NCBI GenBank assembly: GCA_024998625.1
Contig: JACOEL010000003.1
Coordinates: forward strand, 124,001-188,000
DNA: 64,000 bases
Direction of reading: 5' to 3'
Source: Nitrospira sp.
Lineage (GTDB): Bacteria > Nitrospirota > Nitrospiria > Nitrospirales > Nitrospiraceae
Shown piece after piece: positions 55,097 to 63,120 of this stretch (its first letter is position 1; each line of letters opens with the position of its first letter). The position numbers and the translations under genes were made by a program. The notes beneath the pieces are model-generated. The model was not told where the DNA came from and searched no databases. It saw only the letters and a list, made by a program, of their open reading frames with translations.

Positions 55097-55402
55097 ATGC
55101 GAAGTTCCCGTTTTAGAAGCATCGTCTGGGTGGTCGCATTTGCCGTCATTGCCTTATTGGCGGTGACGACTGGGAGTGCGGTCGCGCACGAACTCCAACA
55201 TGCCGCGCATCACGATGCCGGGATGCATGGATCAGGCATTTGTGCCTGGATGTGTGCCACGGCCGGGGTGCATGTGGTGACTCCCGTTCACTCGACGCAC
55301 CTGTTCACCGTGGCCGGTGACGTGTCGTTCCGTTCTGACACTGTGCTCTTGCCTCAGTTACTTGCTCCGAGTCGGCCTCGCGCCCCACCCGTTTTCGCCT
55401 AA
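55097..55402 (+). CDS. Small His/Cys membrane-associated protein 1
   Basis: 101 residues. N-terminal hydrophobic segment (IVWVVAFAVIALLAVTTGSA) likely a signal or anchor, then HELQHAAHHDAGMHGSGICA and WMCATAG: a His cluster followed by C-x-x-x-C (CAWMC). A second weaker hydrophobic stretch and an R-x-x-R-A-P-P-x end follow. The gene at 60364-60684 has the same layout (GHHHGG, SSFCVWACQA, SRAPP), so the two are paralogues. The His/Cys cluster suggests metal binding, copper being a natural guess; no family name is known to me. Confidence 0.65.
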   Translation: MRSSRFRSIVWVVAFAVIALLAVTTGSAVAHELQHAAHHDAGMHGSGICAWMCATAGVHVVTPVHSTHLFTVAGDVSFRSDTVLLPQLLAPSRPRAPPVFA

Positions 55403-55533
55403 CCAAGTCTACGTTGTGCCTGTCCCGCTCCGTGACTCATTGTCGCAGAGCCTGAGGAAACAGTTCCGCGAGGTGTCTCGCATGCTGTGGGTGCATTCCT
55501 TCTTTCAGATCGTCGGAATACGAGGACGCTGTG

Positions 55534-56757
55534 ATGGTCCCTGTGCGTGAGATCGGCGTTGCCTTTGCCGAGACTGAATCTCCTGCGATCATGATGCTCG
55601 GGGCGCCGCTTACACTCGCCCAGTCCACCACGGCCATCTCTCCCCTCACGCTTCGGTTTCAGCGCGATGGAAGGCTACACGCGGCCTGGATTGAAAACAA
55701 CGGCATGCAGGGAGAAGTAAAGACGGCAGTTATTCCTGCTGATCACTCGTCGGTCGTCCAGGTTTCCGTCAATCCTCCGGGTGCCGGCCCGGAAGCTGTG
55801 CATCAATCACCGGGTTTCGCCATAGGCGGTGACGGGGAACAGTTCGTGACCTGGTCCTCTGCCAATAAGACCCCCGACGCATTATTTGCGTCGGATCTCC
55901 GCCTCGCACGATTGGACGCGGGGGGCATGCGTGTTCAGCCGCCGGTGCAGGTCAATGACGATGGCTTGGCCATTTCGCATACCTTTGAGCATGTGATTGC
56001 CGGGAAAAATGGCGAGGTCTTTATCGCCTGGCTGGATGGACGGAACAAGGACCGGAGCGGGGCGGGCATCATGTTCGCTTGCTCCCGGGATCATGGCGCC
56101 ACGATCGACAAGAATCTCGTCCTTGACGGGATGGCCTGTCCCTGTTGCCGCCCGATGCTCGGGCAGGCGCCGGATGGGTCGTTGTGGGTCGCTTGGCGCA
56201 AGACCTTCGAGGGGAACGTACGGGACATTGTGGTTGCGCGTTCGACCGACCAGGGCCGGACCTTTGCTCCGCCGATTGTCGTCAGTCGGGACGGATGGGT
56301 ATTTGACGCCTGTCCCCATCGGGGTCCCTCGATCGCATTCGATGCCCGGGGACGCCTCTATATCGGGTGGTACACCGAGGGTAAGGACGAGCAGCCGCGC
56401 CTCTTCATTTCAACATCGGACGATCAGGGTGCGACCTTTTCCACTCCGGTGGCGCTGCACAACGCGACAACCTCTCTGCCGGACAATCTCCACATGGCCG
56501 TCCATCCCGATGGCCGGGTTGTGGCGGTGTGGGAGGAAGTGACGGGGGTGCGGAAGCGTGTGGTCATGCGAGTGTCGGACGATCGCGGGCGGACATTCGG
56601 CCCAATGCAGACCTTGAGCCGCGGCTCCAAGGCCGAGCATCCGACCGTGGCCATCCATGACAGTGGAGCCGTGGCGCTGGGCTGGACCGAACATGCCTTT
56701 CCGCACAACAGAATTATCGTACAACAAGGGCAATTGTCGCGGCTGGTGACACCCTAG
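55534..56757 (+). CDS. Sialidase-fold (BNR-repeat) protein with CxCC and CPHR motifs, copy 1
   Basis: 407 residues (GTG at 55531 is an alternative start). A six-bladed beta-propeller pattern with Asp-box-like segments: SRDHGATIDK, STDQGRTFAP, SDDQGATFST, SDDRGRTFGP. Two features set it apart from glycosidases: Cys 202, 204 and 205 in MACPCCRP, and Cys 260-Pro-His-Arg in DACPHRG, which together could bind a metal or haem. The N-terminus has no recognisable export signal, although its paralogue has one; the true 5' end may be altered. Second gene after the promoter at 55041. Confidence 0.8.
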   Translation: MVPVREIGVAFAETESPAIMMLGAPLTLAQSTTAISPLTLRFQRDGRLHAAWIENNGMQGEVKTAVIPADHSSVVQVSVNPPGAGPEAVHQSPGFAIGGDGEQFVTWSSANKTPDALFASDLRLARLDAGGMRVQPPVQVNDDGLAISHTFEHVIAGKNGEVFIAWLDGRNKDRSGAGIMFACSRDHGATIDKNLVLDGMACPCCRPMLGQAPDGSLWVAWRKTFEGNVRDIVVARSTDQGRTFAPPIVVSRDGWVFDACPHRGPSIAFDARGRLYIGWYTEGKDEQPRLFISTSDDQGATFSTPVALHNATTSLPDNLHMAVHPDGRVVAVWEEVTGVRKRVVMRVSDDRGRTFGPMQTLSRGSKAEHPTVAIHDSGAVALGWTEHAFPHNRIIVQQGQLSRLVTP

Positions 56758-56802
56758 CACGGTTCGGCGATTCCCATTCAAGAAGGAGCAAGAGGAGGAG
56801 TC

Positions 56803-57261
56803 ATGAAGATGCAGGTGGATCAGCAGGTGGGACGGATGGGGCTGTATGGGTTGGTGGGATTGGCGCTCATGCTGTGGGCGCCCGGCCTGTCTGCCGCCGA
56901 CGGAAAAGGAGAGAAGTCGTACACCATTGCCGTGACCGACCAACAAGGGGTCGAAACCGAGCTGAAGAACGGCATCTTCTATTGGGAAGAAAAAATGAGC
57001 GAGACCTCGTTCGTCCCGCATGAGTTGCGGCACCTGCCGTCCAAACGCGGAACGGCGACGGTCAACATCAAGTTCGACCAGATCAAGCAGATTGAGATCA
57101 AGCCCGGTGCCGACAAGACCGCGCCGCTCATGACGGTGACGTTGACGAACGGCAAGAACGGTGAATTTACGCCTGCCGTCAGCGGAAGCTTCAAGGGTGA
57201 GTCGGATTTCGGCCAGGTCGAAGTGCCGATCGGATCCGTATCCAAGGTGATGTTCAGGTAA
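56803..57261 (+). CDS. Periplasmic protein of unknown function
   Basis: 152 residues, signal peptide ending at about LSAAD, start preceded by AGGAGG. The mature part is beta-rich: KSYTIAVTDQQGVETELKNG, FYWEEKMSETSFVPHELRHL, a KRGTATVNIKFDQIKQIEIK strand pair and a C-terminal VPIGSVSKVMFR. Its position between a sialidase-fold protein and TonB suggests a role in the same uptake system. No family recognised. Confidence 0.7.
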   Translation: MKMQVDQQVGRMGLYGLVGLALMLWAPGLSAADGKGEKSYTIAVTDQQGVETELKNGIFYWEEKMSETSFVPHELRHLPSKRGTATVNIKFDQIKQIEIKPGADKTAPLMTVTLTNGKNGEFTPAVSGSFKGESDFGQVEVPIGSVSKVMFR

Positions 57262-57295
57262 GGGCGGAACGAATCGTTTCGAAAGGACGTGTCCC

Positions 57296-58438
57296 ATGGA
57301 GAATGTGCTCGTAGCGCAATCGTGGCAACCCAAGCGATCGATGACAGGGTGGGGAGCCTCGCTCCTGCTGCACGCCTGTCTCGCGCTCGCCGCATTCGGG
57401 CTGATGCCGAAAATGGCCATGATCGCGGAGAAAGAGCCGTTCAAGTGGGATGTGGCGCTGGTCGAGGCTCCGCGCGAAGTGGTGCGCCAGGAAGAGCCGG
57501 CTCCGGTGCCGCAGGTGCAGCCTCCCGCTCCGACGCCTGTGAAGCCGCGATCTGAGCCGGTGCGTGCCGTGCCACCGCCGCCTCAGCCGGTACAACGCCA
57601 GGTCGAAACCCGTGTGGTGCCGCAGGCGATCCAACGTGAGGTGCAGCCGGTCGTCGAAACGGTTCGTCCGCAGGAGCAGATTCAGCCGACCAGGGAGGTG
57701 GTGCAGGTACAGGCCAAGCCCATTGAGCCGCAAGAGATCCAGAAAACGGAACCGTTGATGCAAGCGGCGGTGCCGGCTGAGGTGGTACGGGAAACTGCTG
57801 CGGCCGTCGAGCAGACGGTGGTGGAAGCGGCGCCGGTGACGGCGCAGACCTATCAAGCCCAGGCGGTGGTAAGCGAACCAGCCGTGATAGAAACGAGGTC
57901 TGAACCGGTAGTCACGGCGAGGGCCCCGGTCGTGCAGGCGGCCCCGGCGGCTGAACCGGCTCCACCGAGTCCGGCACCGGCCGTGGAAGCAATCGCCGCC
58001 GTCAGTGAGCCGGCGCCTGCTCCTCCTGCCCCGGCGGAACCGGTCGCTGCCGCCCCTGCGCCGGTGGCCGCAGCGCAGCCGGATCCGGCGACGTTACAAG
58101 AACATCAAGTCGTGGCGCGCGTGGCCACGCCGCGGCCTGCCACCAAAGCCGACTACGGCTGGCTGGCCGAATCGCTGCATCGTCGCATCATCGAACTCCG
58201 GCATTATCCCAGCACTGCGCGCTTGAACGGCTGGGAAGGCAAGGTCGTCTTGAAGGTGTCGATCCGCAACGACGGGCAGCTTAAAGACGTCGAGGTGGTG
58301 AAAAGTTCAGGGCATGAGTCGTTGGATCAGGCGGCGATGGAAGCCGTACGGCGCGCCTGTCCGCTGCATATGAAGCACGAGTTGACGGCACCGATGGTCG
58401 TGTTGCATTTGCCGGTCAGTTACAGTTTGAACCGTTGA
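57296..58438 (+). CDS. tonB: TonB energy-transducing protein
   Basis: 380 residues. One N-terminal membrane anchor (about 20-40: GWGASLLLHACLALAAFG), a long Pro/Val/Glu/Ala-rich periplasmic linker (about 60-265) and a C-terminal TonB domain (about 285-380) with the YP motif in LRHYPSTARLNGWEGKVVLK and NDGQLKDVEVVKSSGHESLD. It transmits the proton-motive force from ExbB/ExbD to the outer-membrane receptor; no exbBD pair is in this window. A dedicated TonB next to a receptor gene suggests a matched pair. Confidence 0.93.
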   Translation: MENVLVAQSWQPKRSMTGWGASLLLHACLALAAFGLMPKMAMIAEKEPFKWDVALVEAPREVVRQEEPAPVPQVQPPAPTPVKPRSEPVRAVPPPPQPVQRQVETRVVPQAIQREVQPVVETVRPQEQIQPTREVVQVQAKPIEPQEIQKTEPLMQAAVPAEVVRETAAAVEQTVVEAAPVTAQTYQAQAVVSEPAVIETRSEPVVTARAPVVQAAPAAEPAPPSPAPAVEAIAAVSEPAPAPPAPAEPVAAAPAPVAAAQPDPATLQEHQVVARVATPRPATKADYGWLAESLHRRIIELRHYPSTARLNGWEGKVVLKVSIRNDGQLKDVEVVKSSGHESLDQAAMEAVRRACPLHMKHELTAPMVVLHLPVSYSLNR

Positions 58439-58531
58439 GAGCGACAAGTCGTTATTCTGCTCAGGCTCAGCGGATCGTGCGGCTTCAGAAGCATAGAGGA
58501 ACCGGAAAATGAATGTGGAAGGAAGGCGCTG

Positions 58532-59809
58532 ATGCGGCAGTCTCAAAAGAACATGGGCGGGCTGTTGGCCCTGTGCCTCGCGGTGGCGATCCCTATTGCG
58601 GCCGCGCAGGCTGAGTCGGCCGTTCCCTTCGAGCTCAGCCAGAAGTTTGTGACCGAACACAAGGTGAAGAGCCTGGTGGGTCCGTCCGTGCAGGTGGATG
58701 AGCAGGGGCAGGTCTCCTTGGCCTGGATGGAAGAAGACAAGGATGTGCGGTCCGTCCTCTATGCTCGTAGCACGGAACCGGGCGGACCGATGGGAGCGCC
58801 GGTGCGCATCAATCGTCCGGAAGACGTGCCCTATTGGCGCCAGGAAGCGCCGGCCCTGGTCGTGCAGGGGGAGGACGTGTTTGTGACGTGGGGACTGACC
58901 CATCCGAAAGCCACGCCGCAACAGCCTTTCGCGACGGAACTGCGATTGAGCCGCTCGACCGATGGCGGCAAGACGTTTCAGCCCTCTGTCGCGGTGAACG
59001 ACGATCCGGGCGTCATTCAGCATACGTTCGATGCGTTGCATCGTGATGCGGATGGACGGTTGCACCTCTCCTGGATCGACGGGCGCGAAGGAAAGAAGGA
59101 GCCCGGCACCTACGTGGCCCGCTCGTTGGATCGGGGCGCGACGATCACCAGGAATCTCAAGGTGGACGAGGGGACCTGTGTCTGCTGCCGCACGGCGGTG
59201 ACGAGCGGTCCGGAGGGAATGGTCTACGTGGCCTGGCGGAAGATTTTCGAAGAGAATGTGCGGGAAACGGTCGTGGCGCGTTCGACGGACCACGGGGAGA
59301 CGTTCGAGGCGCCGGTGATCGTGGGGCATGATCAATGGGTGTTCCCGGCCTGCCCACATCGTCCGGCCTCAATGGGTGTGGACCGTCAGGGTCGTCTCTA
59401 CGTTGTCTGGTACACCGAAGGAACGGACGAAATTCCCGCCGTCTACCTCGCCTATTCGGACGATCGAGGGAAGAGTTTTTCTGAAAAGCGGAAGTTGAAC
59501 GTCTCGAAAAACACCTTTCCCGACCATCCGCAGATTGCGGTCGATCCGGAAGGACGGATCGTGGTGGTGTGGGAGGAGCAGGCTCCGGTCAAGCGGGATG
59601 TGGTGATGAGCGTCTCGATGGATCGTGGGACAACGTTTACGGCGCCGCACAAAGTGAACGAGAGAAAAAGCCAGACGCCGGTCGTGGCCGTGAATAGTCA
59701 AGGTCTGTTTGCCCTGGCCTGGATGGAGCATGGCATGCCCGGTCATAAAATTGTGATGCAGACCGTGACGGTGCCCTCGGTGAAGATGGCGGCTGAACCG
59801 GTGCGATAG
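58532..59809 (+). CDS. Exported sialidase-fold protein with CxCC and CPHR motifs, copy 2
   Basis: 425 residues, signal peptide of about 27 residues (IAAAQA-ES), GGAAGG before the ATG. Same propeller fold and same two motifs as the protein at 55534: Cys 216, 218 and 219 in GTCVCCRT and Cys 274-Pro-His-Arg in PACPHRP. Propeller repeats include STDGGKTFQP, SLDRGATITR, STDHGETFEA and SDDRGKSFSE. The shared Cys/His set and operon context make a metal- or haem-binding role likelier than glycan hydrolysis; that is inference. It lies between TonB and the TlpA-like gene. Confidence 0.85.
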   Translation: MRQSQKNMGGLLALCLAVAIPIAAAQAESAVPFELSQKFVTEHKVKSLVGPSVQVDEQGQVSLAWMEEDKDVRSVLYARSTEPGGPMGAPVRINRPEDVPYWRQEAPALVVQGEDVFVTWGLTHPKATPQQPFATELRLSRSTDGGKTFQPSVAVNDDPGVIQHTFDALHRDADGRLHLSWIDGREGKKEPGTYVARSLDRGATITRNLKVDEGTCVCCRTAVTSGPEGMVYVAWRKIFEENVRETVVARSTDHGETFEAPVIVGHDQWVFPACPHRPASMGVDRQGRLYVVWYTEGTDEIPAVYLAYSDDRGKSFSEKRKLNVSKNTFPDHPQIAVDPEGRIVVVWEEQAPVKRDVVMSVSMDRGTTFTAPHKVNERKSQTPVVAVNSQGLFALAWMEHGMPGHKIVMQTVTVPSVKMAAEPVR

Positions 59810-59833
59810 CCGGGCGGGTTTGTGATTGGAACG

Positions 59834-60367
59834 ATGAAGGTGATGGGATTGTTCAGGGGCCTCATGTTGGCGGTTGTGCTGAGCACGACGGCCGGTCCTG
59901 TATGGGCGGATGATCCCTTCGCCGCGTTGAAAATCGCGCGGGTTGCGCCGGGCACTGCCGCTGCGGCCTTCGAGTTGCCATCACTTGATGGACGCACAGT
60001 GCAACTCGCGGACTTGAAGGGGAAAGTCGTCGTGGTGAATTTCTGGGCCACCTGGTGCGGGCCCTGCAAAGAAGAAATGCCGGCCTTCGAGCGTCTGCGA
60101 CGGCAGCTGGACCCCGACCGCTTCGTGTTGCTGACCATCACGACCGACTTGCAGCGCGCCGGCATCAAACAGTTCCTGGCCAATCTCAACGTGCAACTCC
60201 CCGTGTTGTTCGACGAACAGCAGGATGTCTCGCAAGCCTATCTGGTTCGGGCCTTGCCGACCACGGTGTTCATCGACCGGCAGGGAGCCTTGCTGGGCCG
60301 CGCTGTCGGACCGCGTGAGTGGGATGCGCCCAAGGCGGTGCAGGCGTTGCAGGGGCTGATGCCATGA
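59834..60367 (+). CDS. TlpA/ResA-like thioredoxin-fold protein, exported
   Basis: 177 residues from the ATG at 59834 (an in-frame GTG at 59822 is possible). A signal peptide ends near VWADD. The redox site is VNFWATWCGPCKEEMPAF, with the cis-Pro loop ALPTTVFID. TlpA/ResA proteins reduce periplasmic disulfides, for example before copper or haem insertion; here CxCC and CxxxC partners are encoded next door. Its stop overlaps the following small gene by ATGA, so the two are translated together. Confidence 0.9.
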   Translation: MKVMGLFRGLMLAVVLSTTAGPVWADDPFAALKIARVAPGTAAAAFELPSLDGRTVQLADLKGKVVVVNFWATWCGPCKEEMPAFERLRRQLDPDRFVLLTITTDLQRAGIKQFLANLNVQLPVLFDEQQDVSQAYLVRALPTTVFIDRQGALLGRAVGPREWDAPKAVQALQGLMP

Positions 60368-60684
60368 GTCGTCTCAAGACACCCTCCGTCGGACTCGCGG
60401 CCGCACTTGCGGGAATCTATCTGGTCCTGGCCCTGTTCTCCATGGCCTGCGCCGTCGACCATGCCGACCCGATGCCGGCCGGCCATCATCACGGGGGGAC
60501 GGTGTCCCACTCCAGTTTCTGCGTCTGGGCTTGTCAGGCCAATCCCACGTCGGATGCTGCGGCGTCCGCGCTGGTGCTTCATCCGTTCCTTGTGGTCGCG
60601 TTGTTTGTCGAGCGTGATCATACCGTCATTGCCGGCGGCGCGGGCTTCCACGCCGCCTCTCGCGCGCCGCCCGTTCAATCGTAA
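60364..60684 (+). CDS. Small His/Cys membrane-associated protein 2
   Basis: 106 residues. Hydrophobic N-terminal segment (AAALAGIYLVLALFSMACAV), then HADPMPAGHHHGGTVSHSSF with a His cluster and C-x-x-x-C (CVWAC). A second hydrophobic stretch (ALVLHPFLVVALFVE) and the end SRAPP follow. Same architecture as the protein at 55097-55402. The start overlaps the TlpA-like stop, so it is probably made in step with that redox protein. Likely metal binding; family unnamed to me. Confidence 0.65.
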   Translation: MSRLKTPSVGLAAALAGIYLVLALFSMACAVDHADPMPAGHHHGGTVSHSSFCVWACQANPTSDAAASALVLHPFLVVALFVERDHTVIAGGAGFHAASRAPPVQS

Positions 60685-60792
60685 TCCATTTCAGATCGCT
60701 AGGTGTTCTAGCAGCTGTTCTCGCCCGTTCAGACAGGGGCGGGAAGGGTATGTCTCTGCTGTCGTGTGCACGGTTGTGCCAGGAGGACGTGT

Positions 60793-63120
60793 ATGTGGGC
60801 CAGTCGGTATTCATCTCAAATTCAATTCATTCTGCTTCTTACTCTCGTCGCGGCGCTGCCGTTGAGCGGGCTCCAAGTCTTTGCGCAGGAGGAGTCGGCG
60901 GCCGGAACCGTCGTGGAAAAAAGCGCGCGTGAGCGCGACCTGCGGGATCAGCTACAGAAAATTCTTCATGAGCTGGAGGAACTTCAGCAAGCGCCTGCGG
61001 GAGGCGCGACTGTCGCGCCGGTACAGCCGTCGGTGGTGCAGGAGCCATCATCGGATGACAAGACCGCCGAAGCGATTCCGGAATTTGAGCTGGCCGACGT
61101 CAGCATCGTCAGCAGCCGGGTTCAACGGCGCCCCGAAGGCATCACGCTCTCGGCCACTGAGCAGTCGGAAACCGAGTCGCAGCCGACGAGGACGCTTCGC
61201 GAATCCATGGAGTCTTTGCCCGGTGTGGTCCTGCGACAGGCCAACGGTCCGAGAGATTTCAGCATTTCGATCCGTGGCTCGGGCGTGAAAACCTCGTTTG
61301 CGGTGCGTGAGATCAAAATGTACGAGGACGGATTCATCCAGACGCAGTCGGATGGGTTGTCCCGTCTGGATATCCACGATCCCTGGTTCATGCGGAGTGT
61401 GGAAGTCACGCGAGGCGCGTCATCCTCTCTCTACGACAACTACGCACTCGGCGGTATGGTGCATTTCCGCACGAGGCGCGGCAGCGACATCAACGGGATG
61501 GAAAGTTTCGTCAGCGGCGGGTCCTACGGCTATCAGAAATACGGGTTTGCCCTCGGCCAGCAGTTCGAGAATGTGGACATCTCGCTCTTCGGCAGTCATG
61601 TGGCCGAGGATGGATTCATTCGCCACAGCGACTACAGCACGCAAACGATGAATTTCAATTTTCGCGTGAAGGTCGACGACAAACAGAACCTCTATTTCAA
61701 GGCGATCACGAACTGGCTGGACTCACGGGTGCCGACGCGGCTGACGTTATCGCAGTTCGATGCCGACCACCGGCAGGCCGGCGGCATCAACAATGCGACG
61801 AATGCGGTGCTCCTGGGGCAGCGTCGATTGGATCGGCGCAATATCATCGGTGGAATGTACGAGCGGCAGATCGACGCCAACACCGTGTTGACAATGGAAG
61901 CCGACTACGACGTGAAGGACATCAACCAGACCTTCACGCAGATCTCCGACAACATCAATCCGAATTACAAGCACTATACGGACTTGCGTCACGACGGGCG
62001 GCTGTTCGACATGCCCTTGCGCAGTTACGTCGGCTTTTTTGTGAATCAAATGGAGCAGGAAGGGCAGACCTTCAATAACCTCCAGGACTTCTTCGGTACG
62101 CGCGGCACGTTGGCACAGAACAGCCGCGGGACGATCCGGAACATCGGCGGACGGTTCCGGGAAGAATTGGAATTTATCCCGAAGTGGACCCTGGCCGCAG
62201 GCCTCGGGTTCGAGCAATCGCAGTTGAGCGTGCAGACGATCAACTACACGGCCGGGGCGGTCAGCGGCAGGGCCGGAGCGGAACGCAGCTTCAGCAACTG
62301 GGCGCCGGAACTGTCGGTCAGCTGGAAGCCGGCCGACGGGTATCGCCATTGGGTGCGCGCCTCCACCGGGTATGCCATTCCGGGGTTCGGCAATCTGTTG
62401 ACCAATCCTTTTACGGGTCTCGCAGGAACTAATTTCGATTTGAAGCCGCAGAAAAACCTCAACGTCGAACTCGGCACCGAGTCCCGGTTGCACAAGACCT
62501 TGACGGTGCAGTTGGTCGGCTTCGTCACGTTCGTCAAAGACGAAATCATCACTCAGGTGGTCTCCAATACCGGCGGCCAGGCTGCGATCAACGCGGACTC
62601 GTCGCAATATCGAGGCATCGAGTTCTTCTACGACTGGCGGCCCTTGGACGGGTTGCGGCTCTCCGGCGCCTACACGCACATCGATGCGCGGTACATCAAT
62701 TTCAGCGACCGGTTCCTCGCCGGCGGGATTCCGACGGCCTTCGTGCGGGACGGTAAAGTGGTGCCGAACGTGCCGACCGACACCCTCAATTTCAAGGAGT
62801 CCTACGATCATGCCGCCAGCGGGTGGGGCGGCTGGGTGGAAGTCAACTATATGAACAGTTACTTCTTGAACAACAATAATACGGTGGGCATTCCGTCTTT
62901 CGTGATCGCCAACCTGAATATCCATAAGAATTTCGAGTTCCATAACAACAAGTGGATCCGGTTCGCGAAGTTCTTCGCTGAGATCGATAACATCGCCGAC
63001 AAGAAATATGCGGCTTCCGGCAATGTTGTGGCCGATAGCACGGCCGATGCGAACAAGACGCTGTTCTTTGCCGGTTATGGCCGGTCGTTTTATGCCGGGG
63101 TGACATTGGGATTGTTCTAA
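60793..63120 (+). CDS. TonB-dependent outer-membrane receptor
   Basis: 775 residues; AGGAGG lies before the ATG at 60793. Signal peptide to about 31 (LQVFA). Then a short coiled coil (about 40-65: RERDLRDQLQKILHELEELQ), uncommon for receptors, a plug domain (RESMESLPGVVLRQANGPRD, SIRGSGVKTSFAVREIKMYE, LYDNYALGGMVHFRTRRG) and a 22-strand barrel ending in the aromatic C-terminus SFYAGVTLGLF. Substrate unknown; with the CxCC/CPHR and His/Cys neighbours a metal or metal complex is the best guess. A strong terminator follows directly. Confidence 0.93.
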   Translation: MWASRYSSQIQFILLLTLVAALPLSGLQVFAQEESAAGTVVEKSARERDLRDQLQKILHELEELQQAPAGGATVAPVQPSVVQEPSSDDKTAEAIPEFELADVSIVSSRVQRRPEGITLSATEQSETESQPTRTLRESMESLPGVVLRQANGPRDFSISIRGSGVKTSFAVREIKMYEDGFIQTQSDGLSRLDIHDPWFMRSVEVTRGASSSLYDNYALGGMVHFRTRRGSDINGMESFVSGGSYGYQKYGFALGQQFENVDISLFGSHVAEDGFIRHSDYSTQTMNFNFRVKVDDKQNLYFKAITNWLDSRVPTRLTLSQFDADHRQAGGINNATNAVLLGQRRLDRRNIIGGMYERQIDANTVLTMEADYDVKDINQTFTQISDNINPNYKHYTDLRHDGRLFDMPLRSYVGFFVNQMEQEGQTFNNLQDFFGTRGTLAQNSRGTIRNIGGRFREELEFIPKWTLAAGLGFEQSQLSVQTINYTAGAVSGRAGAERSFSNWAPELSVSWKPADGYRHWVRASTGYAIPGFGNLLTNPFTGLAGTNFDLKPQKNLNVELGTESRLHKTLTVQLVGFVTFVKDEIITQVVSNTGGQAAINADSSQYRGIEFFYDWRPLDGLRLSGAYTHIDARYINFSDRFLAGGIPTAFVRDGKVVPNVPTDTLNFKESYDHAASGWGGWVEVNYMNSYFLNNNNTVGIPSFVIANLNIHKNFEFHNNKWIRFAKFFAEIDNIADKKYAASGNVVADSTADANKTLFFAGYGRSFYAGVTLGLF

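Follow-up and report, generated by a model that had tools for sequence, protein, structure and literature searches.

Nitrous oxide reductase carries its CuZ centre at the channel mouth of a seven-bladed propeller and thus provides a precedent for copper at such a place. CuZ is held by seven histidines and a sulfide, not by cysteines. The bacterial copper leader peptides are a second described system to which the present locus can be compared. In Bordetella pertussis, copper perception by the CxxC motif of CruR and arrest at RAPP control the downstream gene of a TonB-dependent receptor (PMC9426467), and CutF of Rhodobacter capsulatus is a copper-sensing leader with a CxxxC motif and a proline-rich end (PMC9973294). 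CruR-type leaders are listed mainly from Proteobacteria, with few from Planctomycetes, Firmicutes and Deinococcus (PMC9426467). Here we report a gene cluster from a Nitrospira genome closely related to that of N. defluvii, located in a window of 64 kb (the whole stretch of DNA that was analysed), in which two propellers, A and B, are encoded together with two peptides resembling these leaders, D1 and D2. A and B are likely to represent exported seven-bladed propellers with a thiolate site at the channel mouth, which would most probably bind Cu(I) in the periplasm, in a copper-handling cluster.

The genes of the cluster form a run on the same (+) strand, consisting of D1 (55097..55402), A (55531..56757, with a start at 55531 or 55534), a putative exported protein of 152 residues without family match that is also present in close relatives (56803..57261), TonB with a TonB_C domain (57296..58438), B (58532..59809), a TlpA/ResA-like thiol-disulfide protein of the AhpC-TSA/Redoxin type with a WCGPC motif (59822..60367), D2 (60364..60684), and a TonB-dependent receptor (60766..63120). 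The order from B via the TlpA-like protein and D2 to the receptor is kept in nearly all Nitrospira loci of sufficient length, and TonB is usually located upstream of B. The nearest named family of the receptor is PqqU/YncD (NF041535), with a score of 199 bits that is far under the curated cut-off of 1200, and there was no match to the TonB-dependent copper receptors OprC/NosA (TIGR01778); the receptor thus resembles PqqU more than it does copper receptors of the OprC type, which is a point against the copper reading. The receptor of another locus (L109) scored 27.6 bits with TIGR01778, also below the curated cut-off (472). Just past the window, about 15 kb from the propeller cluster and near a gene for a DsbA-like protein, a large P-type ATPase with three YHS and two heavy-metal-binding domains is encoded (G000:C25:199553-202501, identical to L128:13554-16502).

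Both D1 and D2 consist of an N-terminal hydrophobic segment (a membrane segment in D1), a His-rich stretch, a CxWxC motif (CAWMC in D1, CVWAC in D2), a spacer of 41 or 42 residues, respectively, and RAPP three residues from the end (RAPP-VFA-stop and RAPP-VQS-stop). They share with the CruR/CutF leaders the cysteine motif (CxxC or CxxxC; here CxxxC), the near-fixed spacing, the terminal RAPP, and an N-terminal export signal, which was judged by eye from the hydrophobic N-terminus; D2 also resembles CruR in being located ahead of a TonB-dependent receptor. They differ from CruR and CutF in their spacing, which is 45 residues in the latter, in their occurrence in Nitrospirota, and in the position of D2 inside the cluster, behind other genes. 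Moreover, D2 (17.2 bits) and D1 are both below the Pfam cut-off of DUF2946 (PF11162; 23.7 bits), which was not exceeded by any protein genome-wide, so that there is a likeness to the family and formal membership failed. The strict leader motif was found in 169 ORFs across the loci analysed, as opposed to 0.13 expected in shuffled ORFs; because the loci overlap, the number of independent events is lower. The window contains two strict-motif ORFs, both inside the propeller cluster. A profile search of the 4.4-Mb genome yielded four leader matches with E values below 1e-4, namely D2, D1 and two others. One of the latter (G000:C25:193685-193987) is located about 9 kb beyond D2 and about 5.5 kb before the gene of the large P-type ATPase described above; the genes downstream of it encode TPR, P460-like and DsbA-like proteins and the P-type ATPase. 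The other, weaker match (G000:C13:16738-17034) lies just upstream of the gene of a TonB-dependent receptor.

The sequence-only reading of this DNA had described A and B as proteins of the sialidase fold. They are indeed BNR propellers, and both passed the cut-off of Pfam BNR_2 (PF13088; 31.4 bits) with 48.2 bits for A and 49.0 bits for B, but the AlphaFold2 models of A (pLDDT 88.4, pTM 0.89) and B (pLDDT 86.4, pTM 0.86) have seven blades by strand count, with an N-terminal strand closing the last one. GH33 sialidases share the BNR repeats with Asp boxes but have six blades and a RIP motif that contributes the first Arg of the triad, whereas A and B lack any (F/Y)RIP motif and combine their seven blades with an invariant set of four cysteines and copper-related neighbourhoods. 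The closest solved structures in VIA-align were the likewise seven-bladed propeller of the C-terminal domain of CylK (Z 35.7 over 351 residues, rmsd 3.2) and the PLL/PHL lectins (Z about 29; PLL2 with Z 29.8 over 312 residues), with GH33 sialidase ranking well below them. Identity to CylK and the lectins is 10–14%, with no sign of the Cys site or of a common function. When solved structures were searched by sequence, the matches were limited to weak ones with BNR proteins (best E value 0.003).

The two propellers have 39% identity over most of their length and share a set of Cys and His residues (MACPCCR and DACPHR in A; GTCVCCR and PACPHR in B). The earlier observation that CxCC is followed by CPHR about 55 residues later holds exactly, since 55 residues separate the last Cys of CxCC from the Cys of CPHR in both proteins. 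In A, the motifs are CPCC (C203, C205, C206; 56137..56148) and CPHR (C261–R264; 56311..56322), and in B they are CVCC (C216, C218, C219; 59177..59188) and CPHR (C274–R277; 59351..59362). A further residue of interest is His164 of B (59021..59023), which corresponds to His150 of A (55978..55980). In 53 Nitrospira sequences, all of these positions (H164, C216, C218, C219, C274, P275, H276 and R277; numbering of B here and below) are invariant. Conservation was also evaluated in a diverse set of 27 members from Nitrospirota, Alphaproteobacteria, Gammaproteobacteria and Bacteroidota, with a mean identity of 28% and a minimum of 12%. The four cysteines and P275 were present in all 27, and H164 in 22, with Glu in its place in Bacteroidota; the expectation of conservation in homologues was borne out for this part of the set. 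It did not extend to H276 (14/27) and R277 (11/27), which are held only in most copies of Nitrospirota. The core is therefore CxCC, CP and usually the upstream His, and CPHR is the form of Nitrospirota. No other column of the alignment had Cys in more than 8 of the 27 sequences. This pattern is far beyond chance, and the His and Arg of CPHR are specific to one branch.

We define the copper-linked CxCC-CP family by a seven-bladed BNR propeller, which was predicted for A and B, that carries CxCC and a CP about 55 residues later; both motifs are found in 27/27 members, and this figure refers to the motif-bearing family only, since a relative without the motif (L104) was left out, and the controls mark the boundary of the family. 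At the corresponding site, the paired cysteines are absent from 13 related propellers without CxCC (L104 and twelve weaker matches), and L104 has lost C216, C218, C219 and C274 jointly with R236, R244 and P275. Eight members on Roseobacter plasmids (L059, L060, L062–L064, L099–L101) have an extra pair of cysteines in the columns equivalent to positions 359 and 367 of B, which may form a disulfide.

That one copy has a signal peptide and the other does not is true for this genome. B has a signal peptide, whereas the N-terminus of A (MVPVREIGVAF-AETES, compared with MVPVREIGVAVCGAAALLALVGFSSGASAHKES in relatives such as L004) lacks one because of a clean in-frame deletion of 51 bases near position 55559 of the window; by comparison with L004 and L005, both closely related, it is the hydrophobic core of the signal peptide that was removed. 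All other A-type copies that were read have a hydrophobic N-terminal stretch. In this strain, copy A is probably not exported and would be cytoplasmic; alternatively, the deletion may be an assembly error.

Of the 148 genomes of the phylum that were sampled, 40 gave a match to a propeller profile. The CxCC members are represented only among the strong matches, nearly all from the window's own family, one from the same order and two from elsewhere in the phylum; the weaker matches that were examined are propellers without CxCC. As the genome search covered this phylum, the distribution outside it is known from plasmids only. All 13 plasmid-borne relatives examined adjoin genes for copper or other metals, including Cus/Czc-type RND pumps, copper P-type ATPases, CopC, CopD, multicopper oxidases and DUF326 proteins, the latter being the sole metal-linked gene in the stretch read of L095. 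The number of independent plasmid contexts is about eight because one ancestral cluster is common to several Roseobacter plasmids, and another to the two Spirosoma plasmids. Plasmid propellers without CxCC, which served as a control for the neighbourhoods, gave few independent matches. In public annotations, the relatives are named 'sialidase family protein'. On a Methylomagnum plasmid (L098), a CxCC propeller and CopC are encoded about 5 kb from genes annotated as amoA and amoB (subunits of a copper monooxygenase). In distant Nitrospirota, proteins with CDYCILSQGISPLETVKGAGIRV and no Pfam match (L102:9474-10451 on the minus strand, L103:2872-3255) are encoded near a receptor and a CxCC propeller; they are possibly another metal protein. 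Two matches to the propeller profile each contain one internal stop codon (TAG in G110:C1:1973369-1974592 and TGA in G135:C2:2214940-2216124).

The location of the conserved residues in the propeller was deduced from the blade register, counted back from a conserved Trp near the end of the second strand of each blade. H164 (blade 3), C218 (blade 4) and H276 (blade 5) share position –17, C216 (blade 4) and C274 (blade 5) share position –19, and C219 and R277 share position –16; the register of A is identical. H164 and the CxCC and CPHR positions are located in the loop leading into the innermost strand. This loop belongs to the face that lies across from the Asp boxes and that usually holds the active site in propellers. 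By virtue of the shared register, they surround the channel mouth at matching points of blades 3, 4 and 5, which are neighbours, and H164, C216/C218/C219 and C274/H276 may converge within ligand distance. The position resembles that of CuZ, but no sequence relation between A or B and nitrous oxide reductase was seen.

A metal site in A and B is thus well supported, if indirectly, by the four invariant cysteines, the nearly invariant His, their predicted equivalent positions on adjacent blades, and the copper-tied clusters in four taxonomic groups. Since the family keeps four cysteines at the propeller mouth and sits in copper-handling clusters, A and B are probably copper-binding and not sugar-cutting. 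The exported propeller would receive Cu(I) at a thiolate site to which three successive blades contribute, usually with a His from the first, and with CxCC from the second and Cys-Pro from the third, and would then pass it on or hold it. The Nitrospira propeller may work with the TonB-dependent receptor, TonB and the TlpA-like reductase in copper acquisition or handling, with the TlpA-like protein keeping the propeller thiols reduced, and the plasmid relatives may do the same job inside copper-resistance clusters. Placed between other cuproproteins and the machinery of the outer membrane or of efflux, the propeller would accept copper or serve as its chaperone, or else as a sink. Since the partners in Nitrospira (receptor and TonB) point to uptake and those on plasmids to detoxification, the best reading is that of a chaperone or sink for copper in the periplasm. 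Conservation, fold, register, gene order and leader motif are computed, and from them we infer metal binding, the identity and oxidation state of the metal, the direction of its flow, and the roles of the partners. In a search with partial journal coverage, we found no paper that links the sialidase or BNR family to copper and no experiment on any member.

The main rival of copper binding is a purely structural role of the cysteines. Located in the periplasm, the four residues could pair into two disulfides and so hold blades 4 and 5 together instead of making a copper site, and the top face would bind something else, for instance a copper chelate or a different small ligand. This would agree with the export of the proteins, with the equivalent positions of the Cys pairs on adjacent blades, which could be close enough, with the invariant R185, R236 and R244 near the same face, and with the TlpA-like thiol protein next door. 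However, three cysteines within four residues accompanied by a His are unusual for simple disulfides, and the recurrent tie of the family is with copper genes and copper leader motifs; we regard this explanation as unlikely, if still one to be reckoned with. Less probable again, and in our view rather doubtful, is an enzyme with the thiolate copper or Cys centre as the catalyst of a redox reaction, such as the oxidation of Cu(I) or thiols or the liberation of chelated copper. The channel mouth is the usual seat of the active site in propeller enzymes. D183, R185, R236 and R244 are invariant among the 27 members and lie near the same face as the cysteines, which leaves room for a bound anion, a chelate or a catalytic role, and multicopper oxidases are frequent neighbours, but neither a substrate nor a cofactor came to light, and no homology with any known redox propeller.

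The sequence-only reading had proposed a metal or haem site grafted on the fold, and of these two the indirect evidence from the invariant cysteines and the copper clusters sustains the metal. Haem, or another metal such as Zn or Hg, is very improbable: Cys and His are suitable ligands, some plasmids encode cytochromes c in the neighbourhood and one plasmid copy adjoins mer genes, but the motifs are CxCC and CP[H/V/M] and CxxCH is absent, conservation of the CPHR His does not extend to the whole family, and it is copper genes or copper-leader motifs that recur, not haem genes or those of other metals. A true GH33-type sialidase or glycosidase with incidental cysteines, as suggested by Pfam BNR_2, the Asp boxes and the public label, can be practically dismissed in view of the seven blades, the lack of a RIP motif, the rank of the cysteines among the best-conserved positions, and neighbourhoods that concern copper and not glycans.

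What is new here is a branch of the BNR propellers that is linked to copper and probably binds it. With somewhat less assurance than for the site itself, we favour the view that this branch is a widespread family of cuproproteins of the periplasm that has no name so far and goes under the annotation of sialidases. Consecutive blades would provide its Cu(I) thiolate centre, and in Nitrospirota the family would be supplied by a TonB-dependent route of copper uptake under copper sensing by nascent peptides. If this is true, many proteins that genome annotations now call 'sialidase' would move to copper biology, and a new metal site would be added to a common fold. Nitrospira species include main nitrite oxidisers and comammox organisms, which depend on copper enzymes. 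The cluster would represent a system for copper uptake or handling in Nitrospira that is not described in the papers found, and would extend the copper-sensing leaders of the CutF/CruR type to Nitrospirota.
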